NCBI GenBank assembly: GCA_022843745.1 | Contig: JALHNB010000030.1 | Span: 1 to 64,000 of the forward strand | Direction of reading: 5' to 3' | DNA from: Anaerolineae bacterium | GTDB lineage: Bacteria > Chloroflexota > Anaerolineae > Aggregatilineales > Phototrophicaceae | DNA length: 64,000 nt | Part shown: piece by piece, positions 51,816 to 63,498 of the stretch | Numbering within the stretch: position 1 is the first letter of the stretch | Layout of the letters: each line of letters begins with the position of its first letter | The notes under the pieces: generated by a model | What the model saw: only the letters and a program-made list of their open reading frames with translations | Told to the model about the DNA's origin: nothing | Database searches by the model: none | Translations under genes and position numbers: made by a program

Positions 51816-52034
51816 AAAATCCCCTTTAGTGGCGGGTCACGAAATTTCGATCTATAATGAACTATATAGAAAGGAATCAGTACCAAACGAAATTCAATGT
51901 AAAGCAATACGCTTTATAATAATAGCACTTTGCAGGCGACAACGGTACATTTTTCACCTGTCTAAAAAAACAGTTTGATCAGATTTTATTGCTAATAGTT
52001 CGCACGTTGTTTGAAAATATTGAGTCATATTGAA
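51816..52034. other. Intergenic region between uxaE and the rhamnose-type operon
   Basis: AT-rich 219-bp region separating divergent operons. It contains the promoter candidate listed next and a CTGT-CTAAAAAA-ACAG dyad near 51958. No gene was seen. Confidence 0.55.
51893..51920 (+). promoter_or_regulatory. Candidate promoter of the rhamnose-type ABC operon
   Basis: TTCAAT (51893-51898), a 16-bp spacer and a perfect TATAAT (51915-51920). The leader would be about 105 bases. Confidence 0.4.
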
Positions 52035-53537
52035 ATGCAGCCTATTCTTAAATTAGAGAATATTTCAAAAGCCTTCCCAGGCGTTAAAGCCCTCGATCAT
52101 GTTGAGTTTGAATTGTTCCCCGGCGAAGTCCATGCCTTGCTTGGCGAGAATGGTGCGGGTAAATCCACGCTGATTAAAATTATGACTGGAATCTATCAAC
52201 CCGATTCCGGCCAGATTTTGTTAGATGGACACCCTATCAAAATCGGCAATTCTGCTCAGGCACAGGGTTATGGTATCGCCGCAATCTACCAGGAACCTTT
52301 GGTTTTTCCTGACCTCAATGTCGCGGAAAATATTTTTATCGGGCATCGCGTGAAGGGTGCTTTCGTCGATTGGCGGAAAATGTACCGGGAAGCAGATGAT
52401 ATTCTGGCGCGACTCGGTGTCTCCCTCGATGCTCGCAGTCAGGCGCGTGGCTTAACGTTAGCTCAACAGCAGACTGTCGAAATCGCCAAAGCGCTGTCAT
52501 TGAATGCGCGTGTTCTGATTATGGACGAGCCGACAGCTTCGCTCTCCGCACACGAGGTTGAGCAGCTCTTCAATCTCACGCGGGTTCTGCGGGAGCGCGG
52601 TGTCGCAATTCTGTTTATCAGCCACCGGATGGATGAAATCTTTGAGATCGCTGACCGCGTGACGGTTTTCCGCGACGGGCAGCAAATCTCCAGCAAACCG
52701 ATTGCTGAGATAACCCGCGATGGTGTAATTCAGGATATGGTCGGGCGCAAGCTGGAGTCGTTTTTTGCGCGAAATGAACATGAACAGGGCGAGTTAATGC
52801 TTTCCGTCCGTAATCTGGGAAAAAGGGGAATCTTTTCCGACATCAATTTCGATATTCATCGGGGCGAGGTTCTCGGATTTGCGGGATTAGTCGGGGCGGG
52901 CCGCACTGATGTTGGACTGGCGTTGTTTGGCGTTGAGCCTGCTGATTCTGGCGAGATTATTTTGAAGGGCAGCCAACAACAAATCCGTTCACCGGAGCAG
53001 GCGCAAGCGTTGGGGATTGCCTATGTGACCGAAGATCGGCGCCAACTTGGGTTGACGCTGCCCATGTCCATCGCTGCCAATATTTCGCTGCCGAGCTTGC
53101 GCAAATATCTATCGGCAGTAGGCATTATCCGGCGCAAGGCTGAACAGGCGACGGCTGAGAATTATCGCCAGCGCCTTTCGATTCGCACACCTTCGATATG
53201 GCAGGAAGCTGGGAAACTCTCAGGCGGCAATCAGCAAAAAGTAGTTTTGAGCAAATGGTTGAACACAGAACCTCAACTGCTGATTCTCGACGAGCCGACA
53301 CGCGGAATTGATGTGGGCGCGAAGGCCGAAGTGCATCACATCATTGACCAACTCGCCGGGCAGGGCATGGGCATCATGCTGATCTCATCGGATTTACCCG
53401 AAGTGCTGGCGATGAGTGATCGTATTCTGGTCATGCGCGAAGGCCAGCAGATGGGTATTTTCAACCGTGAGGAGGCTACTCAGGAAGTGGTCATTAATGC
53501 CGCGATGGGACAATCCCGCTCAGATGTGAAAGTCTAA
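52035..53537 (+). CDS. rhaT: Rhamnose-type sugar ABC transporter ATP-binding protein
   Basis: About 500 residues, two ABC domains. First: Walker [15 protein letters not shown], Walker [13 protein letters not shown]. Second: degenerate P-loop [11 protein letters not shown], signature [11 protein letters not shown] and Walker [15 protein letters not shown]. The start is set at the ATG at 52035, since [20 protein letters not shown] is the usual beginning; an upstream TTG at 52011 is possible. No clear Shine-Dalgarno is visible. It is the first gene of an ATPase - permease - permease - binding protein operon, the arrangement of the RhaT/RhaP/RhaQ/RhaS importer of Rhizobium. The symbol rests on that arrangement and on the binding protein. 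Confidence 0.85.
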
Positions 53538-53539
53538 TT

Positions 53540-54601
53540 ATGTACCGAATCCGACACTATATTCGCCCCGAACAGATTCGTGAGTTCAGTCTCATTTTTA
53601 TCATTATGCTGGCGGTGCTGTTTTTCGGGACACAAATTGATGGTTATTACAGCGCCCGCACCTTTAACCGAATCGCCGCCAGTGTTGCGATCATCACGGT
53701 GCTTGCCGCTGGGCAGACTTTGGTGATCCTGACGCGCAATATTGATCTCTCGATTGGGTCGATTGTGGGATTCGCATCGTATTTTGCCGGACAGCAGCTT
53801 TCGGCTAACCAGGACATGCATCCCCTGATTGCTGTGGGAATCGCGATTGGTTTCGGTGCGCTGCTCGGCAGTGTCAACGGATTGCTGGTTGTTTATGGGC
53901 GTGTCCCGTCGATCATTGTTACGCTTGGGACATTAGCGATATATCGAGGTGTACTCGTAGATTATGCACAGGCCAAGACGATTACCACAGATATGATGCC
54001 GACATGGCTGGTTGATCTGCCGCGTGTGAATCTGTTTACCGTAGGTGAAATAGAAATTCGGGTCATGGTTGGGGTAGCCGTACTCGTGGTGATCGCTTTT
54101 CAATTATGTTTGACTTACTTGCTTCTGGGTCGCCGTTTGTATGCGATTGGCTCGAACCCGGACGCTGCTCGCGTCGCTGGGCTTCCTGCGCGGCGTATCG
54201 TTTTATTGGCGTATATTCTTTGCGGAGCGCTGGCAGGGCTGGGTGGTTTTATGTTCTTGGTTCGCTTCGGCACGATAACGGTATCCGCTGGTGTGGGATT
54301 GGAATTATCGGCAGTTGCGGCAGCAGTTGTGGGCGGGGTCAATATATTTGGCGGGGCAGGAACGATGTTTGGCGCACTGTTCGGCGCTGTAGTCATTGGT
54401 ACGTTGGAGCAAAGCCTCCTGCGAATGCCAAATGTCAGTGAGTTTGTGCGGGATGCGCTGCTGGGCTTGTTTATCCTTCTGGCGGTTGCCAGCGATGCCG
54501 TGATCTTGCAGCAATTGCGCAGCCTGTGGGCGCGTTGGGCGCGAGAAGCAAGAGAGACACCTGCGGCGCATTCAGAAAAGGAGTCAGGCCATGCCTCCTA
54601 G
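53540..54601 (+). CDS. rhaP: Rhamnose-type ABC transporter permease 1
   Basis: 353-residue membrane subunit of a CUT2-class importer. Signature LTRNIDLSIGSIVGFASYFAG (the DLS-x-G motif) and GRRLYAIGSNPDAARVAGLP (ATPase-contact loop). The last 25 residues are a polar tail. It begins 2 bases after the ATPase stop and its end overlaps the next permease start by 11 bases, so translation is coupled. A separate second permease indicates a heterodimer, as in RhaP/RhaQ. Confidence 0.88.
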   Translation: MYRIRHYIRPEQIREFSLIFIIMLAVLFFGTQIDGYYSARTFNRIAASVAIITVLAAGQTLVILTRNIDLSIGSIVGFASYFAGQQLSANQDMHPLIAVGIAIGFGALLGSVNGLLVVYGRVPSIIVTLGTLAIYRGVLVDYAQAKTITTDMMPTWLVDLPRVNLFTVGEIEIRVMVGVAVLVVIAFQLCLTYLLLGRRLYAIGSNPDAARVAGLPARRIVLLAYILCGALAGLGGFMFLVRFGTITVSAGVGLELSAVAAAVVGGVNIFGGAGTMFGALFGAVVIGTLEQSLLRMPNVSEFVRDALLGLFILLAVASDAVILQQLRSLWARWAREARETPAAHSEKESGHAS

Positions 54602-55574
54602 CTTTAAGTGGGACTCGCTGAAGCGTTGGGAAACTCTGTTAGCAGTGGTATTGGCAGTTGTCGTTATATTTAATATCAGCCAGTCGTCCGTTTTCCTGCG
54701 CGTGGATAACCTGGTCAATCTGTTCATGCTGCATATCGAAAAAATTATTGTTGTACTCATCATGACGCTCATTATTATCAACGGCGAAATTGACCTGTCA
54801 GTGGCTTCGGTTATGGGGCTGGGAGCGTGTGTGGTCGCCAACCTCTACGAGCGTGGTGTGTCGATGGAGGCTGCTATTCTGGTTGGACTAGGTGTGGGTG
54901 CGCTATGCGGGATCATCAATGGTTTCTGGGTGGCCTATGTCCGATTACCGTCGCTGGCGGTGACTCTGGCGGGTTTGATTGCTTATCACGGTATCGCTGA
55001 AATGCTGGTCGAAGACCGTTCGATAGGCAACTTCCCTGATTGGTTTAATCAGCTTGGTCAAAAAGCCCTGATTGGCCCACTGCCGCTTTCACTTGTTATT
55101 TTTTTCATTTTATTCATTATCTTTGCAGCAGTCCTGCATTTTTCCGCTTTTGGACGCTACGTTTTCGTGATTGGTAACAACCGCGAGGCAGCACGCTATT
55201 CTGGTGTGCGTGTTCGCCAAGTGAAGATGATGCTTTACATCATGTCCGGGGTGATTGCCAGCCTCGCCGGGATACTCTTCGCAGCGCGATTAGGCGCGGT
55301 GCGTGCCAGCACAGCGGAGGGTTTTGAACTTGATATTATCACAGTCGTTCTGCTGGGCGGTGTGAGTATCTTCGGTGGCAAAGGTACCCTTGCTGGCGTT
55401 GGCTTATCCATTATGCTAGTCCTTTGCCTGCGCAATGGTATGAATCTTTTGAGCATTACAGGCAATACCCAGAGTACCGTTATCGGTGTTTTGTTGATTT
55501 TTTCTGTGCTTATTCCCAACCTGACGCAGGATTTCCAGGGTTTCTGGAATCGCCGTCGGATGATTGCAAAATGA
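54591..55574 (+). CDS. rhaQ: Rhamnose-type ABC transporter permease 2
   Basis: 327 residues with the CUT2 permease pattern: IINGEIDLSVASVMGLGACV holds the DLSV motif and GRYVFVIGNNREAARYSGVR the coupling loop. GGAG stands 7 bases before the ATG, within the tail of the preceding permease gene. It has only about one third identity by eye to its partner, which fits an old heterodimer rather than a recent duplication. Confidence 0.88.
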   Translation: MPPSFKWDSLKRWETLLAVVLAVVVIFNISQSSVFLRVDNLVNLFMLHIEKIIVVLIMTLIIINGEIDLSVASVMGLGACVVANLYERGVSMEAAILVGLGVGALCGIINGFWVAYVRLPSLAVTLAGLIAYHGIAEMLVEDRSIGNFPDWFNQLGQKALIGPLPLSLVIFFILFIIFAAVLHFSAFGRYVFVIGNNREAARYSGVRVRQVKMMLYIMSGVIASLAGILFAARLGAVRASTAEGFELDIITVVLLGGVSIFGGKGTLAGVGLSIMLVLCLRNGMNLLSITGNTQSTVIGVLLIFSVLIPNLTQDFQGFWNRRRMIAK

Positions 55575-55657
55575 GAGTGAAAGGAGTATCCCGACAAGAT
55601 AGATGATTTCGAGATGCTATGAGAGTGGAATTTAGTGAATATCTATGGAGATGTAAC

Positions 55658-56746
55658 ATGAAGAAAAGCTTTTTAATTCTGATTATCCTTACAGTGATGT
55701 CGCTCAGTCTGGTGAGCGCACAAGATGAAGCGGTGGTTGCTACCCCTGGCGAAACCGTGAATATGATTCTTTTGCCAAAGTTCCTGGGTATTGCTGTTTT
55801 TGATCAGGCGCATCAGGGCGCTGAAGAAGCCCACGCGGAATTGCAGAATGCAGGTACGCTCGAATTCCTGGGGCCGACGCAGGAAAACAGCGCCGCTGGA
55901 CAGGTCGAAATCGTGACTACGGCAGCCTCGCGTGATGATGTGGATGCCATCATGATCTCGAATAACGCGGGCGATCAGCTTGGGCCGGCGCTTGAGGCAG
56001 CAAAAGCAGCAGATCAAACCGTCGTGACCTGGGACTCTCCGATTCCTTCCGGTGACAGCGAAGATTTGTTCGTTGCGCAGGTGGATTTTGATCAAACTGG
56101 CAAGGTTATGGCTGATATGGCACTGAGTATTCTCGGCGAAGATGGCGGCAAATTTGCTGTTCTCTCCGCCTCGCCAGATGCCGCTAACCAGAATGCGTGG
56201 ATTGCCTCACTTCAGGAAACGCTGGAAGATGAAGCATATGCCAGCCTTGAACTGCTGGATATTGTTTATGGTGACGATGTAACCGAAACCAGCTATGACC
56301 AGGCGCTTGCACTGGTCGATAAATATCCTGACATGGAACTGATTATGGCTCCGACCACTGTTGGTATCGCAGCAGCGGCGAAGGCCATGCAGGACGAAGG
56401 TCTGTGCGAGACGGTCAAAGTCAGTGGGCTGGGACTCCCCGCCGAAATGCTGGACTTCACGCTGAACGGCTGCGCACCGGAATTCGCCCTGTGGAGCTTC
56501 GTTGATCTGGGTTATGTGACCTACTATGCCACGTATCTCTTGGCGACGGGAGCGATTGAAGCTGAAGAAGGCGTGAGTTTCGAAGCCGGACGCATGGGAG
56601 TCTATACCATTGAGAAAGACCCCACCCGCGAAGTCGGCCTACGCATTGTGATGGGACCCTTCAGTGTTTACAATATCGACAACGTGGAAGCAGCAGCAAA
56701 CCCCGGTGGTGCAGAAATGACACCAGAGGCCACCGAAGAAGGTTAA
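55658..56746 (+). CDS. rhaS: Rhamnose-type ABC transporter substrate-binding protein
   Basis: 362 residues from the ATG at 55658 (GGAG 7 bases upstream). Signal peptide [21 protein letters not shown]. The mature protein shows type 1 binding-protein features ([51 protein letters not shown]) and the [11 protein letters not shown] plus [15 protein letters not shown] pattern that I associate with RhaS. It binds L-rhamnose or a close deoxysugar. It is last in the operon and followed by a terminator. An alpha-L-rhamnosidase gene lies at 17.9 kb. Confidence 0.85.
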
Positions 56747-56845: not shown

Positions 56846-56962
56846 GTTGTTCTGTGCGGCGGGGATATAATCGTAATAGTTAAAATATTTTTGTATCCAT
56901 ACAATAGCAATCTTTAACAATCAACAGAATGATAGCACCCTTAAAACTGACTGAGGTTGGAT

Positions 56963-59047
56963 ATGTTAGGCGGACGATTACGTGCCGCGCGGCATTCGCG
57001 CTTTGTAGGGCGATCAACGGAACAAACGTTATTTCAATCGGCTTTGGCTGAGACTATACTGCCATTCCAGGTGCTTTATGTATTTGGCCCTGGCGGGGTC
57101 GGTAAAACAACGCTGCTCCAGGAATTTTTATATATCTGCGAGCGTCTTGACACCCTGGCGATTTATCTGGACGTGCGAAATGTTGAACCATCCCCGGAGG
57201 CATTCCTCAGTGCACTGCGGCAAACGCTAAACCTGTCGCCGCAAGACTCATTTTTTGAGGCTATTGGGAAGGATGATCGGCGCAGCGTTATTTTGATTGA
57301 CACCTATGAAACGTTTGTGCCGCTGGATGATTGGATGCGCGAAAACTTTCTGACGCAACTGCCGAATAACACACTGGTTGTGCTGGCAGGGCGTAAATCA
57401 CCAGGTTTGGCGTGGCGCAGCGATCCTGGTTGGCAGATGCTCATGCAGACGATTTCACTGCGTAATCTTGAGCCGAGTGAAAGCCGAAGTTACTTAGCAC
57501 GACGACAAGTACCCGATGACCAATATGCAGGAATTTTAAGTTTTACACATGGTCATCCGTTGGCACTTTCGCTGGTGGCGGATGTGTTTGCCCAACGCCG
57601 CGAAATCCAGTTTCAGCCAGAAGTTGTGCCGGATGTTGTGCGAACATTATTAACTCAATTTGTGCAAAAAGTACCTGGGCCAGCACACCGCGCGGCGTTA
57701 GAAGTGTGTGCGCTTGTGCGGCTCACCACAGAATCACTGTTGGCAGAAATGCTCACACTGCCCGATGTTCATGAATTGTTTGAATGGCTGAACACGCTTT
57801 CATTTATAGATTTTGGTCCCGAAGGTATTTTTCCGCATGACTTGGCGCGGGAAGCACTCATCGCTGACTTACGATGGCGTAATCCAGAATGGTACGCCCA
57901 ACTTCATCGCCGAGCACGGGGCTATTATCTGAAACTGCTGCAACAGACTACGAGTTGGGCGCAGCAGCGTGTGTTATTTGATTATATTTTTTTGCATCGC
58001 GATAATCCATTGGTCAGACCTTTTTTTGAGTGGCAGGTCAGCGGAACGATTCTGACAGATGTGATGCAGGCCGGTGATATTCAGGCCTTGAAAGCTGTCG
58101 TTAAGCAATATGAGGGTGACGAATCCGCGCGCTTGGCCTCGTATTGGTTTTCGCGCCGCCCTCAGTCGGTTCTGGTATGGCGCGATTCGAAACGACAACC
58201 GGTAGGCTTCCTGCTGCTGATTTCGTTGGGAGAGGTGAGTCAAAATGATATTGAAGTTGACCCGGCAGTAAAATCAACGTGGCGTTACCTGCAAAATCAC
58301 GCGCCGCTGCGTGTGGGTGAGGTCGCTACCTTATTTCGATTCTGGATGGCGCATGACACTTATCAGTCGGTTTCGCCTGTACAAAGCCTGATCTTTGTCA
58401 ATATGGTTCGCCATTATCTTTCGACTCCAGGATTGGCGTACACTTTTCTGCCGTGTGCCGACCCGGATTTCTGGGCGACAGTGCTGACCTATGCTGACCT
58501 CTCGCATGTTCCAAGCGCAGATTTCACCGTTGGCGATCAACAATATGGTGTGTATGAGCATGACTGGAGGATTGTCCCGCCGATGGCATGGCTAACCTTG
58601 TTGGCAGAGCGAGAAACGGCGACAACGCCCGAAGCTGTTACAAGCCCGGCGGTTGAGTCGCTGATCGTTCTCAGCAAAGCGGATTTTGCCGAAGTCGTGC
58701 GCAATGCGCTGCGCGATTTTTCCCGCGCTGATTTGCTGCGTACCAATCCGCTGCTGCGTTCCCGGCTGGTGATCGAACACAGCGGCGTGAATGCTGTGGA
58801 TAATGAACGGGTTGCATCCTTGCAGATTTTGCTGCGTGACGCTGTGCAAACCCTTCAGCAATCACCCCGGCAGGTGAAATTGTACCGCGCGTTGTATCAC
58901 ACCTATATTCAACCGTCGCCCACTCAGGAGCAGGCGGCTGAACTTCTGGACTTGCCGTTTAGCACCTATCGCCGCCATTTGAAAGCGGGATTGGATCAGA
59001 TAACCGATTATTTATGGCATAAAGAAATCGGGACACTTGAAAAATGA
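56963..59047 (+). CDS. AAA/STAND-like ATPase fused to a GNAT-like domain and a C-terminal HTH
   Basis: 694 residues from the ATG at 56963 (GAGG 6 bases upstream). Residues 1-230: P-loop ATPase with FVGRSTEQ (the R-box-like start), GPGGVGKTTLL (42-52) and Walker B SVILIDTYE, a STAND-type sensor NTPase. Helical winged part to about 390. Residues about 400-560: QSVLVWRDSKRQPVGFLLLI, PLRVGEVATLFRFWM and HDWRIVPPMAWLTLL, which reads as a GNAT acetyltransferase-like fold. C-terminal PTQEQAAELLDLPFSTYRRHL is a sigma-70-region-4/LuxR-like helix-turn-helix. So it may sense a ligand and regulate transcription, perhaps of the SnoaL-like gene downstream. The GNAT part is from pattern memory, and activity is uncertain. 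Confidence 0.75.
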   Translation: MLGGRLRAARHSRFVGRSTEQTLFQSALAETILPFQVLYVFGPGGVGKTTLLQEFLYICERLDTLAIYLDVRNVEPSPEAFLSALRQTLNLSPQDSFFEAIGKDDRRSVILIDTYETFVPLDDWMRENFLTQLPNNTLVVLAGRKSPGLAWRSDPGWQMLMQTISLRNLEPSESRSYLARRQVPDDQYAGILSFTHGHPLALSLVADVFAQRREIQFQPEVVPDVVRTLLTQFVQKVPGPAHRAALEVCALVRLTTESLLAEMLTLPDVHELFEWLNTLSFIDFGPEGIFPHDLAREALIADLRWRNPEWYAQLHRRARGYYLKLLQQTTSWAQQRVLFDYIFLHRDNPLVRPFFEWQVSGTILTDVMQAGDIQALKAVVKQYEGDESARLASYWFSRRPQSVLVWRDSKRQPVGFLLLISLGEVSQNDIEVDPAVKSTWRYLQNHAPLRVGEVATLFRFWMAHDTYQSVSPVQSLIFVNMVRHYLSTPGLAYTFLPCADPDFWATVLTYADLSHVPSADFTVGDQQYGVYEHDWRIVPPMAWLTLLAERETATTPEAVTSPAVESLIVLSKADFAEVVRNALRDFSRADLLRTNPLLRSRLVIEHSGVNAVDNERVASLQILLRDAVQTLQQSPRQVKLYRALYHTYIQPSPTQEQAAELLDLPFSTYRRHLKAGLDQITDYLWHKEIGTLEK

Positions 59048-59134
59048 GCATAAACTGAACATGATTTGAACTGTCAATCAGACATGAGGGTCGTTTAGAC
59101 TATAGATGTCCAAATAGAGTGGCTATCGTTGTTT

Positions 59135-59554
59135 ATGACGCCCGAAGAAACGAAACAGTTCGCCCGCCAACTGGTTCAGGGTTGGAACACGCACGATCTC
59201 GAACAGATTTTAACTTTTTATTCCCCTGATTATGAAGGTTTAGACGTTGGCCGAGCAGAGCCTCTGTATGGTCATGAAGCGCTGCGTCAGTCCTTCCGTC
59301 ACTACTTTCAGGCTTTCCCTGATGTGCATATTGAGATTAACGAAGTGGTCGTCGAAGCGGATCACATTTCGCTGGGGTGGATCGCAAAAGGAACGCATTC
59401 AGGAGTATTTATGAAAATCCCGCCGACAGGCCGAACAGTCACATTACAAGGGGTATCCATATTTATTCTCGATGACCGGAAAGTGCATCGCGGACAGCAT
59501 ATCTGGGACCTCGCCGGACTGCTTCGAAATGTCGGTTTGCTGCCTGATCTTTAG
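59135..59554 (+). CDS. SnoaL-like polyketide cyclase/ester cyclase-family protein
   Basis: 139 residues. NTF2-like fold: TKQFARQLVQGWNTHDLEQILTFYSPDYEG, then YGHEALRQSFRHYFQAFPDVHIEINEVVVEADHISLGWIAKGTHSGVFMKI-type core with PPTGRTVTLQGVSIF and GQHIWDLAGLLRNVGLL. This is the SnoaL-like/ester-cyclase pattern, in which a conserved Asp-His pair can do acid-base chemistry, though most bacterial members have no known substrate. It begins 80 bases after the AAA-GNAT-HTH gene. A ribosome-binding site is not evident. Confidence 0.8.
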   Translation: MTPEETKQFARQLVQGWNTHDLEQILTFYSPDYEGLDVGRAEPLYGHEALRQSFRHYFQAFPDVHIEINEVVVEADHISLGWIAKGTHSGVFMKIPPTGRTVTLQGVSIFILDDRKVHRGQHIWDLAGLLRNVGLLPDL

Positions 59555-59870
59555 CTTTTGAATGATCGTAACTTGTCCAGGAGTCTTAAAGTATTTTTAA
59601 CGGTTTTAAAGGTCTAAAAGAGGTGCTTAGGAATTGAAAATTGTCTCGTAAAAATGTGAATGAAACCTCGATTTTACGCCTCAAAAAGTAAATTATTTCC
59701 CTCTATTTTCTCCTGTAAAAGCGATATTGCTCAACTCATCAAATACTTATTGCAAATTTGCGAGTATAGGTCTAATATGTCGTATTAATTTAACGGTTGT
59801 GTCATATCGGAATGAATTGAAAATAGCAGCGCAATACCATCCACCTTTTTAGAGTTATTAAGGGGTTATG
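59555..59870. other. Long AT-rich intergenic region before the peptide-type ABC operon
   Basis: 316 bp without a credible gene. It contains the perfect palindrome GCAAATTTGC at 59752-59761, a CGTAAAA / TTTTACG inverted repeat with a wide loop near 59647-59680, and a -35/-10-like pair TTGCAA and TAATAT 17 bp apart around 59751-59779, overlapping the palindrome. The palindrome is a plausible operator for the following operon. Confidence 0.5.
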
Positions 59871-61475
59871 ATGAGAAGCAAGTCCAAGAAATTTGTTGTT
59901 GCAATGCTTATTTTTGCGATGTTGGGGTTGGGCATTGTGGTTAATGCGCAGGATGCCACCACGACCCTGCGGATCGGGACAACGTACATGATTGATACGT
60001 TAGGCCCAGGCAGTGGTTATTATGGATATGATATTCGCGGTTTGTTCTACGAAACGCTTGTTGAAGCGGCAGATAATAACAATGTCGAGCCTGGTCTGGC
60101 CGAAAGCTGGACTGTATCTGATGATGGGCTGACCTGGACGTTTAAAATCCGTGAAGGCGTAACATTCAGTGATGGAACACCGCTAACAGCAGCCGATGCC
60201 GCGTGGAGCATCAACTGGATTATCGAAAACCAGGTCGTGTCGATGGTTTCTTATCTCGCGTTTGTCGAAAGCGCAGAAGCGCCGGATGCGACCACGCTGA
60301 TTATGAATCTGTCAGAGCCAGTCTCGAACATGATTAGCTCCAAGCTACTGTATGTGTATATTTTGCCACCCCATATCTGGGAAGGGAAAACTGCCGAAGA
60401 AATCGCGGAATTTAATGAGCCGGAATCAACGATTGGCGCAGGGCCATATCATCTGGTCGAGCATCAACCGGATGAATACATGATTTTGGAAGCGAATGAT
60501 AATTACTGGCGCGGGCAGCCTCCTGTTGACCAGATTATTTATCAGCAATATTCAACAGAGGACGCTCTGGTTCAGGCATTGGCCGCTGGCGAAATCGACC
60601 TCGCAAAAGTCCTTCCTACTTCCGGTGTCCAGACACTCGAACAAACTGAAAATGTGCAGGTTATCAAGACAACAGGTTTAAATTTCCTGCAACTGTCGAT
60701 GAATGTTTCCGAGGATGGTACACAGCCAGCCAGTATGCGTGATCCACAGGTGAGGCTGGCAATTGACCACGCCATTGATCGTGAGCAAATTGTCACGGTT
60801 GGCTATTTTGGCCTTGCTGAACCTGCCGAAATTTTATTCCCACCGGCGATGGCGCAATGGCGTAACACGGATATTCAAATCGTTCCGTTCGATATTGCCG
60901 AGGCGAATCGCATCCTTGATGAAGCTGGATATGCCGATACGGACGGCGATGGTATTCGTGAAGATGCTGATGGTAATCCATTAGAATACCGTCTCGCCGG
61001 GCCGGACAGCGATGCCTACTACCCTCGCATTCTGGAAATCATCTCTGATGGCCTTTCACAAATCGGGATTTCTGCGCTACCTTATACACAATCTACTGAA
61101 AGCCTGACAGTCCTTCAGGTTGATTATGACTACGATATGATCCTCTGGGATTGGGGTATTGACGCTGACCCTCATTTCTTGACCAGCGTCTTTACGTGCG
61201 CTGAGATGGCAGACGGTGGTTGGAATGATACAGGATACTGCAATCCTGAATATGACGCGCTGTTCCAGACCCAGGCGACAGCTACCAGTGACGAACAACG
61301 CCGTGACGCGCTTTGGAAAATTCAGCAGATGATCTTTGATGATCGCCCCTGGATTATCCTGGTTTACCCCCAAGCGATCAGTGGTTATCGAAGTGATCGT
61401 TTTACCTTCGATCCCAATCTCCCGAATGCGCTTTTAAAGTGGGGGCTTTTCACTGGGTTCTCAATTGTTCAATAA
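59871..61475 (+). CDS. ABC transporter substrate-binding protein, family 5 (peptide/nickel/oligosaccharide type)
   Basis: 534 residues from the second of two adjacent ATGs, preferred because AAGGGG is then 5 bases away. Signal peptide to about residue 26 (FAMLGLGIVVNAQ). Family 5 marks are LRIGTTYMIDTLGPG, LAESWTVSDDGLTWTFKIREGVTFSDGTPLTAADAAWSI with the conserved F-x-DG-x-P-x-T-A-x-D motif, GAGPYHLVEHQPDEYMILEANDNYW, and a C-terminal region MILWDWGIDADPHFL. Ligand could be a peptide, a nickel complex or an oligosaccharide; in Chloroflexota such systems often import sugars. First gene of a dpp-like operon. Confidence 0.9.
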   Translation: MRSKSKKFVVAMLIFAMLGLGIVVNAQDATTTLRIGTTYMIDTLGPGSGYYGYDIRGLFYETLVEAADNNNVEPGLAESWTVSDDGLTWTFKIREGVTFSDGTPLTAADAAWSINWIIENQVVSMVSYLAFVESAEAPDATTLIMNLSEPVSNMISSKLLYVYILPPHIWEGKTAEEIAEFNEPESTIGAGPYHLVEHQPDEYMILEANDNYWRGQPPVDQIIYQQYSTEDALVQALAAGEIDLAKVLPTSGVQTLEQTENVQVIKTTGLNFLQLSMNVSEDGTQPASMRDPQVRLAIDHAIDREQIVTVGYFGLAEPAEILFPPAMAQWRNTDIQIVPFDIAEANRILDEAGYADTDGDGIREDADGNPLEYRLAGPDSDAYYPRILEIISDGLSQIGISALPYTQSTESLTVLQVDYDYDMILWDWGIDADPHFLTSVFTCAEMADGGWNDTGYCNPEYDALFQTQATATSDEQRRDALWKIQQMIFDDRPWIILVYPQAISGYRSDRFTFDPNLPNALLKWGLFTGFSIVQ

Positions 61476-61491
61476 AAATACAAACTTTCAT

Positions 61492-61520
61492 CTCCGGTTG
61501 ACCTATTCAGGTCGCCGGAG
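61492..61520 (+). terminator. GC-rich hairpin after the binding-protein gene (attenuator candidate)
   Basis: CTCCGG (61492-61497) pairs with CCGGAG (61515-61520), and GACCT (61500-61504) with AGGTC (61509-61513) inside it. No T-run follows. It lies in the 83-base gap between the binding-protein and first permease genes, the same place as the hairpin at 2806-2841 in another operon, which suggests partial termination or mRNA stabilisation. Confidence 0.6.
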
Positions 61521-61558
61521 GTGAACTAAAAAGTTATAGGGCGGGTAACGTACTCAGA

Positions 61559-62569
61559 ATGCAATTCGATTACTTGTTACGTAAGGTTTTCTTTGCAGTT
61601 ATCACGCTGATTGTGGTTATCGTTTTTAACTTTTTCCTGTTTCGTATTTTGCCGGGTGATCCAGTCAAGCTGCTGTTTCGCAATCCTCGTTTGACGCGCG
61701 AAGCCCAAGAACTGATCCGTGTACAATTTGGTCTGGACAAACCTGTGTGGCTCAACATAGAACGCCTGAGCGCAGGTGATATACCAGGCGCTTTAGACAG
61801 CCAATTCACCGCTTATATCCACAATTTACTACAAGGCAAACTGGGGATTTCGTTTACCAACCGCCAGGATGTCGGCGAAGTGCTATCGGAACGAGTTTGG
61901 CGAACGGTGCTGTTGGTGTTTAGTGGCGAACTCCTGGCAATCGTGATGGGAGTTGTTGTCGGCCTAGTCGCGGCATGGAAGCGTGGCACTGCGATTGATT
62001 CTGCGGCTTTGTTTATCGGTTTATTGACCTGGGCGCTGCCGACTTTCTTCTTAGGGATTATTTTATTGATTCTGGCGCGAGGCATCCTGCCGACAGGTGG
62101 CATGGTAACACCGGGATTGGCTGAGGAAGGTACGCTCGAATACTGGATTGATGTTGGCAGACATCTGATTTTGCCCTCGCTGACGCTGGCTGTGGTCAGT
62201 GCCAGTGGCTACATGCTCATTATGCGCAGCAGCGTGGTTGAGGTGCTTTCTGAGGCCTATATTCTCACAGCAAAGGCCAAAGGGTTGAGTAATGCACGTA
62301 TTTTATTCAGCCATGCGTTGAAAAATGCCATGTTGCCCATGATTACGATTATCGCGCTCACGCTGGGCTATGTTGTCGGCGGGGCGATTCAAGTCGAAAC
62401 CGTGTTTTCGTGGCCGGGAATTGGTCGCTTGATTTATGACTCGGTTGCCAAGCAGGATTACCCGGTTTTACAGGGTGCATTTCTGCTGCTGGCGGTCAGT
62501 GTGATTCTGGCGAACCTGACAGCCGATATTCTGTATTCGGTGTTCGATCCCCGCGTGAAAGTGACGTAG
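61559..62569 (+). CDS. ABC transporter permease, DppB/OppB-type
   Basis: 336 residues with six membrane helices. N-terminal FYLLRKVFFAVITLIVVIVFNFFLFRILPGDP is typical, as is LLQGKLGISFTNRQDVGEVL. The BPD-transp-1 coupling loop reads YILTAKAKGLSNARILFSHALKNAMLP (E-A-A-like region), and VETVFSWPGIGRLIYDSVAKQDYPVLQG is the conserved end. It pairs with the DppC-type permease whose start is 8 bases downstream. Confidence 0.92.
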   Translation: MQFDYLLRKVFFAVITLIVVIVFNFFLFRILPGDPVKLLFRNPRLTREAQELIRVQFGLDKPVWLNIERLSAGDIPGALDSQFTAYIHNLLQGKLGISFTNRQDVGEVLSERVWRTVLLVFSGELLAIVMGVVVGLVAAWKRGTAIDSAALFIGLLTWALPTFFLGIILLILARGILPTGGMVTPGLAEEGTLEYWIDVGRHLILPSLTLAVVSASGYMLIMRSSVVEVLSEAYILTAKAKGLSNARILFSHALKNAMLPMITIIALTLGYVVGGAIQVETVFSWPGIGRLIYDSVAKQDYPVLQGAFLLLAVSVILANLTADILYSVFDPRVKVT

Positions 62570-62577
62570 GAGCGCAC

Positions 62578-63498
62578 ATGAAACAGTTCAGACAGTTCTG
62601 GCGTAAACCAGGTGGTGTAATCGGGGCGCTCATGTTGTTGGTCGTTCTGGTCGCTGCTGTTTTCGCACCCTGGCTTGCTCCCTATGATCCGTATCAGCGG
62701 GTTCAGGTGGAGGCATCCGATATTCTCGCGCCGCCGGATTCAGAACATTTGCTGGGAACTGATGACGCAGGCAAAGATGTTTGGAGCCAGCTTATTCATG
62801 GCGCACGGGTTTCGCTGCTGGTCGGGTTTACAGCCTCGTTCGTGTCGATGGTTATTGGAACGACTGTGGGACTCGTGGCAGGTTATTTCGGCGGCAAGAT
62901 CGACAATTTTCTGATGCGGATCGTTGATTTTCTGCTTGTGATACCGGATTTGCCTTTGGCACTGGTGATTATCGCCGTGTGGGGCAGGGGATTATGGAAG
63001 ATTATCCTCGTCATCAGCTTATTGGGATGGACGTATACGGCGCGTTTGGTACGTGCGCAGACTCTTGCGATCAAAGAGCGTCAATTTATCCTGCGGGCGC
63101 GGGCGATTGGCGCGAATCATCGACGGATTATCATCTATCATGTTTTACCCCTGGTGATGCCTTTGATTATGGCCCAAGCAGTGCTGGATATTTCTGCGTC
63201 GATTCTGGCTGAGGCCTCACTGAGTTTTCTCGGCCTCGGCGACCCGACTCTTGTCAGTTGGGGAAATATGCTGAATTTTGCCTTTGAACGTGCTGTCAGC
63301 CGACAGGCATGGTGGTTCCTGCTGCCACCAGGGTTCGCGATTTTGTGGGTGACACTGGCTCTCATTCTGATTGGCACGAGCCTGGAAGAGGTTGTTAATC
63401 CCCGCATCAAATCTCATCACCTGTTTAACGCCAGCCGGATGGTTTCGCTTATTTTGCCAGTGCCTCCACGCGCCGAGGCCATTAAAGAGGAACCCTGA
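62578..63498 (+). CDS. ABC transporter permease, DppC/OppC-type
   Basis: 306 residues. N-terminal WRKPGGVIGALMLLVVLVAAVF followed by HLLGTDDAGKDVWSQLIHGARVSLLVG (the family's LGTD-x-x-GRD-like motif, here GTDDAGKDV). Coupling loop FILRARAIGANHRRIIIYHVLP and SFLGLGDPTLVSWGNML near the end. GGAG stands 4-6 bases before the ATG. Its TGA stop overlaps the next ATG as TGATG. Confidence 0.92.
   Translation: MKQFRQFWRKPGGVIGALMLLVVLVAAVFAPWLAPYDPYQRVQVEASDILAPPDSEHLLGTDDAGKDVWSQLIHGARVSLLVGFTASFVSMVIGTTVGLVAGYFGGKIDNFLMRIVDFLLVIPDLPLALVIIAVWGRGLWKIILVISLLGWTYTARLVRAQTLAIKERQFILRARAIGANHRRIIIYHVLPLVMPLIMAQAVLDISASILAEASLSFLGLGDPTLVSWGNMLNFAFERAVSRQAWWFLLPPGFAILWVTLALILIGTSLEEVVNPRIKSHHLFNASRMVSLILPVPPRAEAIKEEP

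Follow-up and report, generated by a model that had tools for sequence, protein, structure and literature searches.

STAND proteins (signal transduction ATPases with numerous domains) include plant and animal immune receptors as well as bacterial transcription regulators, of which MalT from Escherichia coli and AfsR from Streptomyces are the closest described systems to the locus considered here. In MalT, a nucleotide-binding oligomerisation domain (NOD) is followed by a sensor and a C-terminal helix-turn-helix (HTH), and the protein acts on several repeated DNA boxes. Fusions of a DNA-binding domain to a GNAT domain (GCN5-related N-acetyltransferase) in one chain, such as MarR-GNAT and other HTH-GNAT proteins, are not known to have a STAND module. 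To our knowledge, transcription control has been little explored in the Chloroflexota. AfsR, according to PMC10936776, binds two 11-bp repeats overlapping the -35 element and the spacer and activates transcription, and the same paper describes MalT and GutR as activated by inducer and ATP. Here, a regulator gene is described from a 64,000-nucleotide stretch of an Anaerolineae bacterium (assembly GCA_022843745.1, contig JALHNB010000030.1, positions 1 to 64,000; hereafter, the window). Its product combines a STAND-type nucleoside triphosphatase (NTPase), a GNAT fold and a C-terminal HTH, and, with a probability of roughly 0.7, is a one-component regulator, probably an activator, that would control the SnoaL-like gene next to it and a dispersed regulon through an array of repeats spaced by 11 bp.

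In its domain order, the protein resembles MalT; repeated boxes are a further likeness, and the first Foldseek match of the whole model is chain C of the maltose-system entry 8bob (E 1.4e-9), which we take to be MalT. It differs from MalT in that a GNAT fold replaces the sensor made of tetratricopeptide repeats (TPR), in the DNA sequence of the boxes and in its HTH, for which GerE (LuxR-type HTH) gave no match in Pfam at E up to 10, a search whose filters drop most weak matches. With AfsR and related Streptomyces antibiotic regulatory proteins (SARPs), as described in PMC10936776, it shares the combination of a STAND NOD with a DNA-binding domain, and 11-bp direct repeats that overlap the -35 element near the -10 element, this likeness of the repeats being one of how they would work only. 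However, AfsR has an N-terminal OmpR-type DNA-binding domain and a TPR sensor, whereas the protein from the window has a C-terminal HTH and a GNAT fold; neither the N-terminal OmpR-type domain nor the BTA domain of SARP/AfsR proteins was found in it by Pfam or in the model, where the chain begins with the NTPase. SnoaL-like domains are reported to be tied to transcription control in ECF41 and ECF56, sigma factors of the extracytoplasmic function (ECF) type with a SnoaL-like extension (PMC8999054 and PMC7730460); there the domain is part of the regulator, whereas here SnoaL is encoded by a separate downstream gene.

The protein would work like MalT and AfsR but lacks the features that define membership of either group (the TPR sensor and the N-terminal SARP domain, respectively), and it is therefore placed as a new form of STAND transcription regulator. 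In the literature searched, consisting of open-licence PubMed Central papers, neither a STAND-GNAT regulator nor its DNA motif nor the whole system was found described. The analysis yields a predicted regulator, its DNA site, its promoter geometry and a list of targets together. What may be new, and this is put forward tentatively, is a GNAT fold turned from an enzyme into the ligand sensor of an ATP switch like those of nucleotide-binding leucine-rich repeat receptors (NLRs), a ladder of 11-bp repeats on which this switch would assemble, its role as a global regulator of scattered polyketide-tailoring-like and detoxification genes in Anaerolineae, a DNA code that differs in a sister clade, and a distribution that extends to other phyla.

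The repeat array and its promoter geometry

The gap between the regulator gene and the SnoaL-like gene contains the array TGAGCA-N5-TGAACA-N5-TGAACTGT (59045-59074). A preliminary description of the window had advised looking for DNA binding upstream of position 59135, and it is there that this conserved, operator-like array, a predicted operator, is located. The common pattern, found by reading the gaps that follow regulator genes, consists of TGAGCA, a second TGAGCA after 11 bp and, after a further 11 bp, the core TGGNCTGG. Locus counts cover 86 regulator loci, from which short or partial matches (L026-L030 and L074) are excluded and which are not independent (L036, L039 and L046 are near-identical, and L034 is the same as L283). 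An array is counted when either of two types, TGAGCA or TTCGGCA, lies within 350 bp of the regulator gene with at most three mismatches. By this measure, an array is present downstream of the regulator gene in 33 of the 86 loci (27 of the TGAGCA type and six of the TTCGGCA type) and upstream of it in none, the best upstream candidates having 6 and 7 mismatches. Since part of these loci had served to define the TGAGCA pattern, more weight falls on the upstream control, and on the tests described below, than on the downstream count. Arrays recognised by eye after the Rhodococcus regulators L076 and L077 (a core with one box on each side) were rejected, the scan giving 8 and 7 mismatches with null fractions of 0.62 and 0.12.

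The array stands at a fixed distance from a -10-like element. Of the 97 sites found genome-wide (see below), 92 were analysed, one identical context having been removed and four lying outside the scanned stretches (G170:C10, G668:C170, G155:C35 and G137:C117, three of which adjoin a regulator gene with SnoaL). The sequence TAnnnT, which was not part of the search pattern, occurs at +50 (34 sites) or +51 (29 sites) in 63 of these 92, with a mean of 1.2 per offset. The core TGGNCTGG spans the place of the -35 element, and a weak fourth box at +34 falls between -35 and -10.

Co-occurrence of array and regulator

Genome-wide, a strict array (the TGAGCA pattern with at most one mismatch) and a regulator match (E up to 1e-40) were recorded in 396 genomes of the class. 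The array was found in 36 genomes, at 97 sites, versus a single match of the reversed pattern, and the regulator in 54. Both are present in 33 genomes, the array alone in three, the regulator alone in 21 and neither in 339 (Fisher p 2e-30); in other words, the regulator is found in 33/36 array-bearing genomes versus 21/360 of the others, and stratification by 10 families, tallied by hand, gives an exact p of 5e-15. In family f1, the genome of the window (G000; 8.0 Mb in 117 contigs) is the only one of 28 with either array or regulator; when up to three mismatches are allowed, it contains 17 matches to the array pattern versus one for the reversed control.

Whole-length copies of the regulator, with 44-62% identity, occur in 24 other genomes (199 genomes of the class searched). 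Relatives are also found on 18 named contigs, many of them cyanobacterial, and on six plasmid records from Nostoc, Rhodococcus, Kitasatospora and Streptomyces, with 29-52% identity over at least 80% of the query. On plasmid pNSMS103 of Nostoc sp. MS1 (L075, 1474-8208), the homologue is preceded by genes encoding a TnsA-like endonuclease and a further ATP-binding protein, an arrangement that suggests a Tn7-like element nearby.

Residue 671 and the type of array

In a sister clade with 43-46% identity, the residue at position 671, in the proposed recognition helix, is mostly Tyr instead of Arg, and behind six of its members lies the array TTCGGCA-N4-TTCGGCA-N4-TTNGNCTGG. Among the loci with an array, all 26 with Arg671 have the TGAGCA type, and six of the seven with Tyr671 match TTCGGCA better. 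Two genomes, G664 (L268, L267) and G542 (L122, L131), each have two regulator copies, and each copy is followed by its own array type. This correspondence lends itself to specificity testing. Two loci with undetermined bases (L015 and L019) were excluded from alignments A2 and A3, and L127 (broken frame) and L034 (the duplicate of L283) from the tree, which was made with FastTree and includes the HTH columns.

Proposed mode of action and other readings of the array

In the resting state, the protein would be kept closed by the NTPase module, with its Walker A, Walker B, GxP and MHD-like His-Asp motifs. A small-molecule ligand, possibly an amine or an acyl donor, may bind to the GNAT-fold domain, which occupies the sensor position between the NTPase and the DNA-binding end and would not have to act as an acetyltransferase. 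ATP-dependent opening and oligomerisation would bring several C-terminal HTHs side by side onto the 11-bp-spaced repeats (TGAGCA, TGAGCA and TGGNCTGG) overlapping the -35 element, and the SnoaL gene, together with dispersed genes for small-molecule modification, transport and signalling, would be switched on or, less likely, off.

Several observations weigh against such a regulator acting through the array. No array adjoins the regulator gene in 53 of the 86 loci, including 11 of the 32 with a SnoaL gene, and the closest relative, L043 (65% identity), has a SnoaL gene and no array. Among the 54 regulator-bearing genomes, 21 have no strict array; conversely, the search at E up to 1e-40 gave no regulator match in the array-bearing genomes G085, G729 and G733 (array sites L277, L278 and L279), perhaps because their assemblies are incomplete or because something else reads the array. 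When exact 7-mer repeats were scanned without bias as to their period, the peak was at 11 bp but weak (9/72 downstream and 3/71 upstream). As for residue 671, L273 has Tyr671 and a TGAGCA-type array, L071 favours TTCGGCA by just 3 versus 4 mismatches, and the evolutionary changes on the tree are few (three in the residue and two in the array, amounting to 1-2 independent pairs and no significance); the Arg/Tyr correspondence therefore supports, rather than proves, direct reading of the array by the recognition helix. The predicted regulon is functionally mixed, and the physiological signal therefore remains a guess. Finally, the array overlaps a plausible -35 element (TGGAAA), which leaves room for repression.

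Repression through the same DNA target, from which a ligand would release the protein, is on the whole unlikely, and it overlaps with the reading preferred here in everything but the sign. It would account for boxes that lie over the -35 element, for which TGGAAA is passable, and for the weak fourth box in the spacer; against it, AfsR activates from similarly placed 11-bp repeats, and MalT and GutR are described in PMC10936776 as activated by inducer and ATP.

A reading in which another factor (a different regulator or an alternative sigma factor) recognises the array, and the STAND gene just happens to be linked to one of the targets of that factor, is rather unlikely. Some arrays, including one in the genome of the window, do have a sigma-70-type gene downstream, and such a reader would fit both the 21 regulator-bearing genomes that lack strict arrays and the three of 36 array-bearing genomes that lack a regulator match. 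Nevertheless, the co-occurrence persists within families, and the type of array mostly shifts with the clade of the regulator, even inside G664 and G542. In addition, 11-bp-spaced boxes upstream of a regular -10 resemble activator boxes rather than sigma elements, and none of the 86 loci has an array in front of the regulator gene, which would be required if that gene were simply co-regulated.

Domain architecture of the regulator

The regulator gene starts with the ATG at 56963 and ends with the stop codon at 59045-59047, a TTG at 56957 being a possible alternative start. The AlphaFold2 model, built from 41 sequences, has a mean predicted local distance difference test score (pLDDT) of 88.0 and a predicted template modelling score (pTM) of 0.73, and comprises the three parts delimited in Table 1. 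The union of an NTPase, a GNAT-like domain and an HTH, already proposed in the preliminary description, is borne out by fold matches, by conserved motifs and by the predicted four-helix C-terminal end. Residue conservation was counted over 41 homologue rows.

For the NTPase, the first match obtained with VIA is a plant NLR resistosome (6j5t; Z 17.2, residues 7-332, 309 aligned, root-mean-square deviation (rmsd) 5.5). The profile AAA_16 matches all 41 homologues and, in single-sequence Pfam, reaches E 3e-7 and 31.5 bits in the protein from the window, just below the cut-off of 32.6; the Pfam NB-ARC and NACHT matches of that protein are all below their cut-offs. Its P-loop, Walker B, GxP and MHD-like motifs, the last being a His-Asp pair that we take to correspond to the MHD motif of NB-ARC proteins, together with the predicted fold, identify residues ~5-342 as a STAND NTPase of the NB-ARC-like kind, for which oligomerisation is predicted.

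The middle domain has a GNAT fold. Residues 350-562 modelled alone reach a pLDDT of 91.5, and the best VIA match is FeeM (2g0b; Z 13.8, 175 residues, rmsd 3.2), with Naa60 at Z 12.9. FeeM, the nearest fold, is an N-acyl amino acid synthase that uses acyl-ACP (acyl carrier protein) rather than acyl-coenzyme A (acyl-CoA); it differs in being a stand-alone enzyme with 10% identity. The Foldseek matches of the domain are mostly acetyltransferases, and the elements follow the GNAT order beta0-alpha1-alpha2-beta2-beta3-beta4-alpha3-beta5-alpha4-beta6-beta7, interrupted between beta3 and beta4 by an additional helical segment (427-446). By sequence profiles, no GNAT family was found for the protein in Pfam or NCBIfam, its middle being without any profile match; none appeared for the homologues among the families listed (25 of 46), and a PDB sequence search with a profile of the domain gave nothing at E up to 10. 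NAT10 is among the Foldseek matches of the whole model, but with TM-scores of at most 0.17 and an rmsd of at least 24, so that kinship with NAT10/TmcA was rejected and the match read as shared domain order only.

The GNAT call of the preliminary description, made from the sequence alone, thus agrees with the predicted structure, but the check that it had suggested, structure prediction for the acetyl-CoA loop, turned out differently for the loop itself. The canonical motif [RQ]xxGx[GA] is present at 468-473 in 0/41 rows and anywhere in 455-490 in 1/41 (L048). Conserved in its place is YQxVSPxQ, with mostly Ile, Val or Thr at position 473. Because the canonical motif is missing, catalysis is unlikely. 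The reading of the preliminary description, in which an active GNAT domain acetylates the regulator, one of its partners or the signal molecule while the HTH regulates the neighbour, is therefore quite improbable and was dropped as the leading one: the fold is clear, many polar residues are conserved and some GNATs without the textbook loop are active, but, besides the missing loop, the protein matches no GNAT family in Pfam or NCBIfam. By analogy with MalT and AfsR, which carry their sensor at the same place in the chain, the domain is better read as a putative binding or sensing module of the STAND-type regulator, with low odds for acetyl transfer; if it is the sensor, it would be a new sensing module for STAND switches.

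The C-terminal end matches the NCBIfam sigma70-ECF model weakly (E 0.0038). The remote STAND-GNAT relative L128 (28% identity) carries an OmpR-type winged helix in its place (Pfam Trans_reg_C, E 2.4e-21), and a similar C-terminal end is present, by reading only, in L129, L132 and L133 (27-28% identity). The STAND-GNAT core is thus combined with different DNA-binding ends, and the OmpR-type domain of these relatives is C-terminal, unlike the N-terminal one of AfsR. A methyltransferase gene comes after L132. The C-terminal module of the regulator also matches, with 27-34% identity, parts of L140, L141, L142, L145 and L146, and of L136 and L137. In one set of these proteins the match lies at the end of a long chain, in which hydrophobic N-terminal segments and a GAF-like middle were recognised by eye; in the other it lies at the start of the chain, and the remaining parts look kinase-like and receiver-like by eye. 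The module is apparently a shared DNA-binding output module.

The SnoaL-like neighbour and the predicted regulon

The product of the downstream gene matches the SnoaL-like family PF07366 well above the cut-off, and polyketide cyclase activity would be predicted at most. Neighbours were searched within 1.5 kb of the regulator gene with a profile made from SnoaL neighbours. A SnoaL gene lies downstream on the same strand in 32 of the 86 loci (21 of them with an array), compared with two downstream on the other strand, none upstream on the same strand and one upstream on the other, and three to five SnoaL open reading frames (ORFs) stand in a row in L033, L055 and L066. Chance adjacency of SnoaL and regulator is unlikely, because the genome of the window contains only five SnoaL matches above the cut-off in 8 Mb; the other four are on contigs without an array site. 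SnoaL was absent beside the regulator in the nine cyanobacterial contigs examined and on the Nostoc plasmid, which rules it out as a universal partner. The pair foreseen in the preliminary description is therefore conserved in part of the family, where SnoaL follows on the same strand, and not in the cyanobacterial contigs; the two outcomes it had named as adverse, lack of an acetyl-CoA-binding fold and lack of conservation of the pair, did not occur. Its proposal of SnoaL as a protein target or as a handler of the signal molecule finds no support and is not needed, since SnoaL looks like one transcriptional target among many. Downstream of other regulator genes lie FAD oxidoreductase genes, on two Rhodococcus plasmids of which one is from Rhodococcus opacus PD630, as well as genes for a glyoxalase-like protein (L068), a methyltransferase (L072) and a protein that binds FAD (L071).

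A SnoaL gene is next to the array in 20 of the 92 sites. The remaining 72 were surveyed for other downstream genes, 68 of them having an ORF of at least 80 residues that starts within 300 bp, with one ORF per site chosen by hand. Among the 25 of 71 Pfam families listed for these ORFs are adenylate/guanylate cyclase (6), ABM (5), NicO (4), DinB_2 (4), Abhydrolase_1 (3), Polyketide_cyc2 (3), FAD_binding_3 (3) and Sigma70_r2 (2). SRPBCC-like genes are also found downstream of arrays, and single checks revealed a globin and a transporter of the major facilitator superfamily. In the genome of the window, two of the better array matches, on contigs C5 and C16 (L147/L159 and L149/L160), precede a sigma-70-type gene and an EryCIII-like glycosyltransferase gene. 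Small organic molecules would be the substrates of many of the predicted targets, some of which look like enzymes of polyketide tailoring or of detoxification; the regulon may have a role in the handling of toxic or secondary metabolites. Array sites in a metagenome-assembled genome of the Bacteroidota (L041; 2334-3050) and in G641 (L200; 703-1680) precede bacterial globin genes, which may hint at a link to redox or nitric oxide.

A conflict or defence protein with SnoaL as its effector was set aside as highly improbable: the STAND fold is related to NLRs and Avs proteins, but PADLOC, searched at E up to 1, gave a single, weak match for the pair (mads_8, E 1.8e-4), a dispersed promoter regulon and a DNA-binding end are unlike an abortive effector, and SnoaL is one of many downstream genes.

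Features of the locus and its surroundings

Table 1. Features of the regulator locus, with positions in the window and residues of the regulator
Feature	Position	Strand	Basis or remarks
STAND-GNAT-HTH regulator gene, 694 residues	56963..59047	+	ORF; whole-length homologues; AlphaFold2 model
NB-ARC/STAND-like nucleotide-binding oligomerisation module, residues ~5-342	56975..57988	+	Structure matches
Walker A GPGGVGKT, residues 42-49	57086..57109	+	Second G of GG, G and K of GK in 41/41 rows
Walker B SVILIDTYE, residues 108-116	57284..57310	+	D113 in 40/41, E116 in 38/41 rows
GxPLAL motif HGHPLAL, residues 196-202	57548..57568	+	P 37, L 41, A 40, L 40 of 41 rows
MHD-like His-Asp, residues 292-293	57836..57841	+	H 38/41, D 38/41 rows
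GNAT-fold domain, residues 364-551, proposed sensor	58052..58615	+	Model of the domain alone; VIA; Foldseek
beta4-alpha3 loop YQSVSPVQ, residues 467-474, replacing [RQ]xxGx[GA]	58361..58384	+	Q468 40/41, S471 37/41, Q474 38/41
C-terminal HTH-like end, residues 613-689, proposed recognition helix 666-689	58799..59029	+	Four helices in the model
Array box 1, TGAGCA	59045..59050	+	Its TGA is the stop codon of the regulator gene
Array box 2, TGAACA, 11 bp after box 1	59056..59061	+	
Core of the array, TGAACTGT (consensus TGGNCTGG), 11 bp on from box 2 and at the place expected for the -35	59067..59074	+	
-10-like TAGACT, +51 from array start	59096..59101	+	Coordinates from sequence
SnoaL-like (NTF2-fold) gene, proposed target	59135..59554 (first ATG)	+	PF07366, E 2.1e-28, 99.1 bits, cut-off 28.4

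On either side of the regulator and SnoaL genes lie ABC transporter genes (52011-56746; 59868-63498), one set of the sugar type, including a RhaS/LsrB-like binding protein, and one of the peptide/nickel type; they are probably unrelated to the pair.

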